Positions 4,690 to 57,201 of a stretch of DNA of 64,000 nt are shown in pieces. The first letter of the stretch is position 1, and every line of letters begins with the position of its first letter. This DNA is from an uncultured Alphaproteobacteria bacterium (GTDB lineage Bacteria > Pseudomonadota > Alphaproteobacteria > HIMB59 > GCA-002718135): contig CACMQS010000001.1 of assembly GCA_902615845.1 (NCBI GenBank), forward strand, positions 62,001-126,000, read 5' to 3'. The notes beneath the pieces are model-generated. The model was given only the letters and a program-made list of their open reading frames with translations. It had not been told where the DNA came from and searched no databases. Position numbers and translations under genes: made by a program.

Positions 4690-4804
4690 ATTATTACACG
4701 CAAAGGTAATAATCAATTTAATAAAAGGAAACGATTATTAAATTGTATCGGGAGGAAATGCACGATACACAAAAGGGACCTAGCTTGCTGGGTCCTTTTT
4801 TTTT
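4690..4804 (+). ncRNA. Candidate small RNA: three hairpins ending in an intrinsic terminator
   Basis: ATTATTAC(4690-4697)/GTAATAAT(4706-4713); TGTATCG(4744-4750)/CGATACA(4763-4769) with GGAGGAAATGCA loop; terminator stem 4771-4799 followed by T tract. Confidence 0.5.
4771..4804 (+). terminator. Rho-independent terminator
   Basis: AAAAGGgACCTAGC/GCTGGGTCCTTTT with one bulged G, then T tract. Confidence 0.75.
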
Positions 4805-5421: not shown

Positions 5422-5456
5422 TTGTTAAATAATAAAAATAAGTATACAAATAATTA

Positions 5457-5601
5457 ACGGGAGATACTGAAATTTCAGAGCCGAAGGAGCAACGACCCGG
5501 AAACTCTCAGGCACAATGGACCGTTAAAAAAAAACTCTGGAAAAGAGCATTTAGCTCTACCGAAGGTGAAAAGCTCTCAGGTAAAAAGACAGAGGGGTAG
5601 C
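5457..5601 (+). promoter_or_regulatory. Tandem glycine riboswitch (two aptamers) upstream of gcvT
   Basis: Aptamer 1 ACGGGAGA..GAGCCGAAGGAGCAA..GGAAACTCTCAGGCACAATGGACCGT; aptamer 2 CTCTGG..CTACCGAAGGTGAAAAGCTCTCAGGTAAAAAGACAGAGG; directly precedes gcvT. Confidence 0.95.
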
Positions 5602-27931: not shown

Positions 27932-28819
27932 ATGAATAATAATATCAAAGCTGTTCTATTAACAATTTCAGCATCATTCTTTGCAGTGTTGATGGAGGCG
28001 TTAATTAAAGCGGCACAATATGATTCAAATGTATATACCATAGGTTTTTTTAGATTTTTTTTTGGTTTTTTAATAATTCTTCCTTATTTAGTAATCAAAA
28101 AATTTAACACATATAAAACTAAAAATTTAAAGTTTTACATTATTAGAGGTGCTTTTAACATACCTGTGATGATCTTAGGTTTTGGTGCATTAGTCTATGT
28201 TCCTTTAGAACAATTTAAAGCTATGCATTTTTTAAGTCCAATAATTGTTGTACTTTTGAGTTTTATTATTTTTAGAGAGCAAATATATAGATTTAGAATT
28301 TTTGCTTTAATAATTGGTTTCTTAGGAATGTTAATTATTGTGAGGCCTGGTTATGTTGATTTTAATATTGGCACTATAATGATTCTAGTTTCATTAACTT
28401 TTTGGTCATTTATAATTATTTTATCAAAATTTGTATCTAAAGATGATTCTCCTATTACAATGGTAACTTATCAATACACTTTAATGACTATTTTCGCTTT
28501 TCCTTTAGCAATTTATTTTTGGCAAATGCCATCCTTAATATCTATATTACTTGTATTTATTGCTGCAGCATCGGGAACAATACTGCATTTATGTCTTGGA
28601 TTGGCTTATAAATATGCTGACTTATCTGTAACTCAACCAATTTGGTTTACAGGTTTAATATTTGGCTCAGGATTTGGTTATTTTGTTTTTAATGAAATAC
28701 CGGATTTTTGGACTTGGATAGGAGGAATAGTTGTTTTTAGTTCTGTTTTAGTAATAACTTATTTTGAAAAAAATAAAGAAGAAAAAAACAAAAAAAATAT
28801 TTTAAGTTCTGTAGAATAG
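27932..28819 (+). CDS. EamA/DMT-family transporter (tandem paralogue)
   Basis: Colinear similarity to 27039..27926 (FFRFFFGFLIILPYL, LEQFKAMHFLSPIIVV). Confidence 0.88.
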   Translation: MNNNIKAVLLTISASFFAVLMEALIKAAQYDSNVYTIGFFRFFFGFLIILPYLVIKKFNTYKTKNLKFYIIRGAFNIPVMILGFGALVYVPLEQFKAMHFLSPIIVVLLSFIIFREQIYRFRIFALIIGFLGMLIIVRPGYVDFNIGTIMILVSLTFWSFIIILSKFVSKDDSPITMVTYQYTLMTIFAFPLAIYFWQMPSLISILLVFIAAASGTILHLCLGLAYKYADLSVTQPIWFTGLIFGSGFGYFVFNEIPDFWTWIGGIVVFSSVLVITYFEKNKEEKNKKNILSSVE

Positions 28820-53039: not shown

Positions 53040-53348
53040 TTATAAAAGTATATTTTTGTATTTCTTTTTAAATAGATTTAATTTTTCTCTTCCATTGAAG
53101 TCTAATCTGTAGGAAGTAAATAAATCTTTCTTTGTTCCCACATCAATTTTAGTTATTTTTACAAATTTTAAATCTATATCTTCTACGTCATCAACATTTC
53201 TTACGAGTAAGGCTAATTTCCATTCTAATTCCTTACTACGTAAATTATCAGGAATGGTATTTTCCTCATTATTATTTTGATTTAAGAATTTTGATATCTT
53301 TTGTAGCATGATGATTAAATAATTTAGATTTAGTTTTCTTTTATTCAA
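53040..53348 (-). CDS. Protein of unknown function
   Basis: 102-aa intact ORF, convergent with neighbour. Confidence 0.5.
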   Translation of the reverse strand: MNKRKLNLNYLIIMLQKISKFLNQNNNEENTIPDNLRSKELEWKLALLVRNVDDVEDIDLKFVKITKIDVGTKKDLFTSYRLDFNGREKLNLFKKKYKNILL

Positions 53349-53435
53349 TAGGATTTATTTTATAAAGATTAACTAACAAAATTTAATAATATTTATAATT
53401 TTAATTGAAATGTAACAATTATGTATTATTTAAAT

Positions 53436-53481
53436 CAAAACGATTTGACTCTATTGCGGTTTACAAGCAGCTAAAATGAGA
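53436..53481 (+). promoter_or_regulatory. SAM-II/SAM-V-like riboswitch aptamer
   Basis: AAAC-GATTTGACTCTATTGCG-GTTT...GCAGCTAAAATGAG; compare SAM-II GATTTAACCGTATTGCA...TAGCTAAAAAGGG; CTC/GAG pseudoknot pairing retained. Confidence 0.6.
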
Positions 53482-53493
53482 TACGTATAAATT

Positions 53494-53532
53494 TATCCTC
53501 CCATTAAGAAAAATGGTGAGGATATTTTTTTT
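53494..53532 (+). terminator. Intrinsic terminator within the 5' leader of the 53544 gene
   Basis: TATCCTCCCATT-AAGAAA-AATGGtGAGGATA + T8, 12-bp stem with one bulge, 11 bp before the ATG. Confidence 0.85.
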
Positions 53533-53543
53533 AGGAGATAGTT

Positions 53544-53801
53544 ATGAATTTATGTGTTGTATCAAAAGGATCTTTTACCAAAGATGATTACATGGAACTA
53601 TATAATTTTTTTAAAGATGATATTGACAAATATACAGATGCATTTGATATGGCTTTCGTTAAAGATGGCCATGTAATGATTATGTGTAATGTTACTGATG
53701 AAGAAAAATTTTACGCTTTATTTGATGATCCAAAATCCAAAGAATTTGATTCAAAATTTAATAGTACAGACACGGTCTATTCTTTACAAAAAGTAGAATA
53801 G
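53544..53801 (+). CDS. Small protein of unknown function, putatively SAM-riboswitch controlled
   Basis: 85 aa, RBS AGGAGA; dimeric alpha/beta-barrel-like size. Confidence 0.75.
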   Translation: MNLCVVSKGSFTKDDYMELYNFFKDDIDKYTDAFDMAFVKDGHVMIMCNVTDEEKFYALFDDPKSKEFDSKFNSTDTVYSLQKVE

Positions 53802-55494: not shown

Positions 55495-57201
55495 TTAATA
55501 CATGAAATAACGTTGAGCCAAAGGTAATGTTTTGGCTGGCTCACAAGTAATTAACTCACCATCTGCTAAAACTTCATAAGTTTCTGGGTTAACTTCTATT
55601 TTTGGGCAATAATCATTAAATATCATATCTTTTTTAGAAATTTTTCTAATATTTTTAACAGGTAATAGAGATTTATTTACTCCAGAATTTTTAAACGAAT
55701 CTTTATCTAAAGATACTTTACTTACAAAAGTGACAGTAGATTTTACTAATGATTTTCCAAAGGAAGAAAACATTGGCCTTGAGTACACTGGTTGTGGTGT
55801 TGGAATTGATGCATTAGGATCACCCATTTGTGCACAAGCAATACTTCCACCTTGTAAAACCATTTCAGGTTTAACACCAAAAAAGGCAGTATCCCAAATA
55901 ACAATATCAGCACGTTTATTTTTTTCGATACTTCCTATGTGCTCTGAAATACCATGTGCTATTGCAGGATTAATTGTATATTTAGCAATGTATCTTTTAA
56001 CTCTTACGTTATCGTTATCACCCTTCTCTTCTTTTAGTTTCCCACGTTGAACTTTCATTTTGTGTGCTGTTTGCCATGTTCTAATAATAACTTCGCCAAC
56101 ACGACCCATGGCTTGACTATCAGAAGCAATAATTGAAAAAGCACCCAGGTCATGGAGTATATCTTCCGCAGCAATTGTTTCTTTTCGGATACGACTTTCA
56201 GCAAATGCCACATCTTCAGGTATTGATTTATCTAAATGATGGCAAACCATCAACATATCTAAATGTTCTTCAACTGTATTAATTGTATATGGTCTAGTTG
56301 GATTAGTTGAAGAAGGAATAACATATTCTTCACCACAAACTTTTATAATATCAGGTGCGTGACCACCACCAGCTCCTTCAGTATGAAAAGCATGAATTGT
56401 TCTTCCATTAATTGCTTTAATTGTACTCTCTACAAATCCACTTTCATTTAATGTATCTGTATGAATCATTACTTGAATGTCATGATTATCAGCTACATTT
56501 AAACAATTATCTATTGCTGCTGGAGTTGTGCCCCAATCTTCATGTAATTTTAGTGAACTTGCACCGGCAATTATTTGTTCCTCAAGTGCTTGAGGTAAAG
56601 AACTGTTTCCTTTTCCTGCAAAAGCTAAGTTCATAGAAAATGCATCGGCTGATTGTATCATTTTCTCTATATGCCATGGTCCAGGGGTAACTGTTGTTGC
56701 CAAAGTACCATGTGCAGGACCGGTTCCACCTCCTAACATAGTTGTAATACCTGAATGAAGTGCATCATCAATTTGCTGAGGACAAATAAAATGAATATGG
56801 CTATCAAAACCACCAGCTGTTATAATTTTTCCTTCACCAGCAATTATTTCTGTTCCAGGCCCAATAATAATATTTACATTTGGTTGTGTATCTGGATTAC
56901 CCGCTTTTCCAATTTCGTTAATTAAGCCATCTTTAAGACCAATATCAGCTTTGTAAATTCCATTTACATCTACTATTAAGGCGTTTGTTATCACTGTATC
57001 AACAGCACCATCTGCACGAGGTACTTGTGATTGCCCCATTCCATCTCGAATAACTTTTCCTCCACCAAATTTTACTTCTTCACCATATGTTGTTAAATCT
57101 TTTTCCACTTCAACAAAAAGTTCAGTGTCGGCAAGTCTGACTTTATCACCAGTTGTTGGCCCGTACATATCAGCATAAGCTTCTCTTTTTATTTTTTTCA
57201 T
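55495..57201 (-). CDS. ureC: Urease subunit alpha
   Basis: [39 protein letters not shown] (carbamylated Lys), [25 protein letters not shown]. Confidence 0.98.

Follow-up and report, generated by a model that had tools for sequence, protein, structure and literature searches.

In streamlined ocean bacteria such as SAR11, SAM riboswitches are a main route of response to sulfur limitation (PMC5069961). Alphaproteobacterial SAM-II riboswitches are mostly transcriptional, and the crystal structure of SAM-V places contacts with its ligand at U8-U10, A18, U19, U20, U47, and A48-A50 (PMC6061858). The tandem riboswitch of bhmT in 'Ca. P. ubique' has a SAM-II domain with a predicted hairpin and a poly-U tract behind it (PMC11508383). 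The leader described here lies upstream of a gene for an 85-aa protein in a 64,000-nt window (the whole stretch of DNA that was analyzed) from the single-cell genome of an uncultured ocean alphaproteobacterium. Its sequence and that of its relatives make it quite likely that this leader is a compact SAM-II variant, featuring a 4-bp P1, a 17-nt L1, and a 7-nt L3, and a probable SAM-dependent OFF switch of transcription termination.

All features of the site are on the forward strand, and the motif, terminator, ribosome-binding site, and gene were found where an earlier note on this DNA had placed them, at 53436-53532 and after. Sequence reading and comparison delimit the aptamer, a compact SAM-II-type pseudoknot, to 53438-53480. 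In P1, AAAC (53438-53441) pairs with GTTT (53459-53462), and the outer pair is AU, GC, or GU within the genus; at 4 bp compared with the 5-6 bp typical of SAM-II, this stem is indeed short, as had been remarked. The 17-nt loop L1, GATTTGACTCTATTGCG (53442-53458), features the P2a strand CTC (53449-53451), which can pair with GAG (53478-53480), as well as ATTGC (53453-53457), which would form P2 with the GC.AA of GCTAAA and, by analogy with SAM-V, would harbor a U:A.U triple and SAM-contact positions. The 7-nt linker loop L3, ACAAGCA (53463-53469), is followed by GCTAAAA (53470-53476) within the P2/P2a 3' strand GCTAAAATGAG (53470-53480), whose bulged U and A are the expected SAM contacts and whose CTAAA is invariant in the alignments A5 and A8.

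A 13-nt linker separates GCTAAAATGAG from the stem of the intrinsic terminator (53494-53532), which was located by folding and in relatives and consists of a 12-bp stem with one bulged T (strands 53494-53505 and 53512-53524), the loop AAGAAA, and T8 (53525-53532). The ribosome-binding site AGGAGAT (53533-53539, core AGGAG) and the 85-aa gene, taken from the list of open reading frames (53544-53801, ATG at 53544), come directly thereafter. Upstream, a promoter-like block, TTGAA...TATTAT (53404-53430, with TATTAT at 53424-53429), stands out by its conservation, with a mean column identity among 43 relatives of 0.89 as opposed to 0.69 upstream and 0.68 in the next 7 bases. If this block is the promoter, the transcript would begin near 53436.

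Termination, antitermination, and conservation with the gene

The terminator stem region folds at -15.8 kcal/mol (z -4.0, with 0 of 200 shuffles as good), which bears out the 12-bp stem and T8 of the earlier note, the stem carrying its one bulged T. With this strong terminator located directly before the ribosome-binding site, and too little space from T8 to the ATG to accommodate a second promoter, transcription of the gene must pass through the leader. By analogy, the leader is most likely a SAM-dependent transcription-termination OFF switch. The nascent RNA would form an H-type pseudoknot, with L1 (CUC, AUUGC) base-paired to the 3' strand GCUAAAAUGAG and SAM lodged in the U:A.U triplex. At high SAM levels, GAG(AUA) would be held in the pseudoknot, leaving the terminator arm UAUCCUC free, and transcription would stop at T8, ahead of the 85-aa gene. 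At low SAM levels, GAG(AUA) could pair with the terminator arm and let the polymerase pass, and the gene would thus be made under a shortage of SAM or sulfur. The identity of the ligand as SAM, the direction of the switch (OFF), and the step of antitermination are all inferences of this kind.

The candidate antiterminator, GAGATA (53478-53483) paired with TATCCTC (53494-53500), is weak. As GAGATA:TATC-CTC it reaches -0.7 kcal/mol at 37 °C compared with -12.8 for the terminator, and because of this difference the copy in the window may switch weakly, its useful range not being assured. The pairing is no better than that of shuffled strands (p 0.56), and at 20 °C the segment reaches -3.8 kcal/mol via a different pairing. 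Antiterminators of the same topology are far stronger elsewhere (-13.5 kcal/mol at L206, -7.5 at L207, and -9.5 at the tandem locus L065). An alternative antiterminator built from L1 and the terminator 3' arm did no better than shuffles and was dropped.

The contrast between this very weak antiterminator and the strong ones of L206, L207, and L065 is in keeping with an unlikely alternative, in which a SAM-II-derived aptamer still folds while its expression platform has become degenerate, resulting in mostly constitutive termination, low leaky expression, and little response to SAM. The state of the gene in some relatives points the same way, as it is deleted in G104 (L211), interrupted by an internal stop codon in G424 (a stop is likewise read in L129), and split in G048 (L141). 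A decayed switch would not, however, be expected to be as conserved as second codon positions, and this is the level at which the aptamer, linker, and terminator are maintained across 43 aligned loci (mean column identities of 0.97, 0.975, and 0.98 for the aptamer, the linker, and the terminator stem-loop, compared with 0.69 for the upstream spacer and 0.84 for third codon positions). The comparative alignment that the earlier note had named among its checks thus came out in favor of the element, with aptamer columns far above the flanks. In L114, the terminator stem is rearranged yet kept. Furthermore, aptamer positions do change where the gene is gone: in G104 the leader persists with CTC turned into CAC and the outer P1 pair broken, both at otherwise near-invariant positions. 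The three loci L211, L129, and L141, in which the leader outlasts a deleted, stopped, or split gene, offer a natural experiment on whether selection on the leader has relaxed.

The leader is tied to its gene throughout the genus. It is present before the gene in all 46 genus loci bearing it (L096-L141), which places the leader beyond chance, and among the 110 family genomes surveyed, every genus genome in which the gene start is covered has it (47/47). Homologs of the 85-aa protein from outside the genus, namely those of the sister family f2 (64-69% identity), Pelagibacteraceae (45-46%), and the genus g3 (41%), lack the leader, so that control through it would be a trait of this genus.

Rfam silence, relatives, and covariation

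In Rfam 15, neither the SAM-II nor the SAM-V model matched within 53300-53700 at E<=10, and both missed the site in a search of the whole own genome. The earlier note had stated that its proposal would fall without such a hit, and on this count the result went against it. The silence is explained by models that are too strict for the compact form (the gathering score of RF00521 is 36 bits), and RF00521 likewise misses the compact aptamers L332 and L333, found before methyltransferase and metY-type genes. Elsewhere in the window, an IMES-4 RNA (4690-4769, forward strand, 101.7 bits) and a glycine riboswitch aptamer (5448-5533, forward strand, 61.4 bits) score above their Rfam thresholds. The core pattern GATTT..TTGC..GCTAAA, with gap ranges chosen by the analyst, occurs once in the 64-kb window compared with 0.08 expected, and 8 of 100 shuffles contain one; the bare motif alone is only suggestive.

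The relationship to known classes emerges from three covariance models. R1, built from 17 SAM-II/V sequences with the window family left out, recovers a held-out tandem SAM-II at 39.7 bits and finds the site in the right register, but with a low score (15.4 bits at E 0.065, the second-ranked match in the 64 kb); a stronger match at 28495-28532 on the reverse strand (19.7 bits) covers the 3' half only, without L1, and was rejected as chance. R2, built from the genus leaders alone, matched none of the known canonical SAM-II loci, and the class link therefore required the two divergent members that it detected within the family, L206 (44.4 bits) and L207 (41.4 bits). These feature a CTCC/GGAG P1 and an L3 (ACAAGCA) identical to that of the window, then a terminator, and then a SAM-V-like aptamer (27.0 and 26.6 bits to RF01826, under its gathering score). 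A further SAM-II-type aptamer lies about 1 kb downstream of the L207 tandem (L207:4064-4123, 31.1 bits with R1).

The third model, R3, was made from the window leader family and L206/L207 only and was run on 385 alphaproteobacterial genomes. It matched three loci outside the genus, two of which are the compact aptamers L332 and L333 (36.7 and 31.0 bits). Their L1, GATTTGATCCTATTGCG, is identical to that of the window at 15 of 17 positions, and they are located directly upstream of SAM-V riboswitches that pass the Rfam threshold (at 66.1 and 78.2 bits), with L332 preceding a homocysteine S-methyltransferase gene (PF02574) and L333 a metY-type O-acetylhomoserine sulfhydrylase gene (TIGR01326). 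The third match, L334, lacks TTGC and is a probable false positive. At E about 0.002, R3 also recovers L355, which is a metX SAM-II leader, and L350, another leader in front of a MetX-like protein. Thus, unlike the aptamer in the window, homologous aptamers linked by the model do precede methionine genes. A match of 13/17 to the metX SAM-II loop had been claimed previously; against the actual sequence of L332, the loop of the window matches at 15 of 17 positions.

Because the fit of the 14-sequence alignment A8 used the P1 of R3, its P1 counts lean towards the model, whereas P2a is outside the model. In A8, both sides change at three of the four P1 pairs and at two P2a pairs (CUC:GAG to UCC:GGA, the latter in L332/L333); at one more P2a position, columns 20/45, pairing is possible in three sequences only. 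Six pairs are scored as changing on both sides. The covariation score is 0.349 compared with 0.102 +/- 0.023 in shuffles, of which 0 of 500 reach it, and slid-strand controls remain at <=0.125. Covariation thus bears out the H-type pseudoknot of SAM-II, composed of P1 and P2/P2a. The pseudoknot covariation of the earlier note could not be evidence within one sequence, but the exchange of CUC:GAG for UCC:GGA across relatives now supplies it. By energy folding the aptamer alone is unremarkable (z +0.2), as is expected since the folding program ignores pseudoknots.

Several other aptamers of this kind were seen. SAM-II/V-like aptamers before short ORFs (about 45-75 aa) are recurrent in the order (L003, L064, L206, L207, L339, L340, L344-L349, and L351-L353); some of these regions look mobile by eye, e.g., those with IYKVKSKEDYIKQREKD-type proteins, and the short ORFs may belong together as one family of small proteins under SAM control. 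L003 (G000:C1:57391-57464), which lies just beyond the window, is the second SAM-II/V-like aptamer of the genome, TGATTTAGATACTCTAATTGC...GCTAAAGGAG, with a Shine-Dalgarno sequence in its 3' strand and a 47-aa ORF downstream. In L057 and L058, the SAM-II-like leader of a bhmT-like gene has a 3' strand, AGAGATATA, with complementarity to TATATCTCT further downstream, and T5 follows the latter. Viral contigs contained neither a homolog of the 85-aa protein nor the aptamer pattern; when the pattern was relaxed, 120 stretches emerged, and only two of a 40-locus subset tested scored with R1. A phage collection yielded nothing beyond marginal matches to L206 (E about 0.6).

Ligand and target gene

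The equivalents of the SAM contacts (UUU, AUU, and UAAA) are all found in the window and do not vary among its relatives, if the contact positions of SAM-V are mapped onto the window RNA by analogy; ATTGC is identical in all 14 sequences of A8. The target is less familiar. The 85-aa protein has no match in Pfam up to E=10 and nothing meaningful in PHROGs, NCBIfam, or, by sequence, the PDB, so that the methionine or SAM gene expected behind a SAM-II riboswitch is here a gene for a protein without a named family. Its AlphaFold model (pLDDT 95.6) has a beta-alpha-beta-beta-alpha-beta, ferredoxin-like fold, the nearest PDB folds being dimeric alpha-beta-barrel or antibiotic-biosynthesis-monooxygenase (ABM)-like proteins at a TM of about 0.5-0.65. 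A dimeric alpha-beta-barrel-type protein is predicted, and a fold likeness of this degree does not fix a function. The gene is convergent to the urease genes of the window. Within these, a match to the 5' ureB sRNA model (56763-57048, forward strand, 101.6 bits), which runs antisense to the ORF of the large urease subunit (55495-57201), may merely reflect conserved coding sequence.

Ligand-switched variants are known for other riboswitch classes. A target that is not a methionine gene, together with a shortened P1 and L3, could accordingly suggest a SAM-II-like scaffold that senses another ligand, such as a related nucleoside, but this is improbable given that every position corresponding to a SAM contact is retained and that the same aptamer type adjoins SAM-V at methionine genes. 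Least credible is that the leader is no riboswitch at all and that a conserved small RNA or an ordinary attenuator or terminator resembles SAM-II by chance, for despite the silence of Rfam and the pattern found in shuffles, neither the covariation nor the recovery of methionine-gene leaders by the window-family model is expected by chance, and the gene is read through the leader.

A compact SAM-II variant is therefore the reading that we retain. The proposal of a SAM-II/V-like riboswitch and terminator before a gene of unknown function is well backed by comparison, and is tempered by the silence of Rfam and the weak antiterminator. What comparison shows is the conserved element itself, the covariation of P1 and P2a, the contact nucleotides, the terminator, and the tandem arrangement with SAM-V at methionine genes. 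This suggests that the 85-aa protein belongs to the SAM-controlled genes. With somewhat less assurance, we favor a compact SAM-II subclass, undetected by Rfam, that has two settings: at methionine genes it is paired with SAM-V, and ahead of a dimeric alpha-beta-barrel-type protein it stands by itself with a terminator. This would put the latter protein in the SAM- or sulfur-limitation response of abundant ocean bacteria. A variant that is missed by standard models would mean that the SAM regulons of streamlined ocean bacteria are under-counted, and the leader marks the small protein as a candidate player in the response to sulfur limitation.

Comparison with SAM-V, the bhmT tandem, and SAM-II

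With SAM-V (RF01826), the leader shares the pseudoknot and the ligand-contact nucleotides. It differs in its L3, in which ACAAGCA leaves no P3 hairpin, in its Shine-Dalgarno sequence, which at 53533 is >50 nt past GAG (53478-53480) and outside the pseudoknot, and in having a terminator in place of translational control. Because of the missing P3 hairpin and the position of the Shine-Dalgarno sequence, the leader is, on its sequence features, nearer SAM-II than SAM-V. The bhmT tandem of 'Ca. Pelagibacter ubique' likewise begins with a SAM-II-type element that has a U-tract hairpin downstream, and the aptamers most closely related to that of the window (L206, L207, L332, and L333) precede a SAM-V or SAM-V-like aptamer as in that tandem; the window, in contrast, contains the first element only, with no SAM-V after it and a target other than bhmT. 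Compared with SAM-II (SAM_alpha, RF00521), the window aptamer is below typical size, with a P1 of 4 rather than 5-6 bp and an L3 of 7 rather than about 11 nt, and it features a 3-bp P2a, a score under Rfam detection, a weak antiterminator, and a non-methionine target. The L1 length, however, equals that of a SAM_alpha match before an osmC-like/metY-like gene pair (L055), and the leader shares with this alphaproteobacterial class the H-type pseudoknot, the GATTT...ATTGC loop, the GCTAAA strand, and a transcription terminator just downstream.
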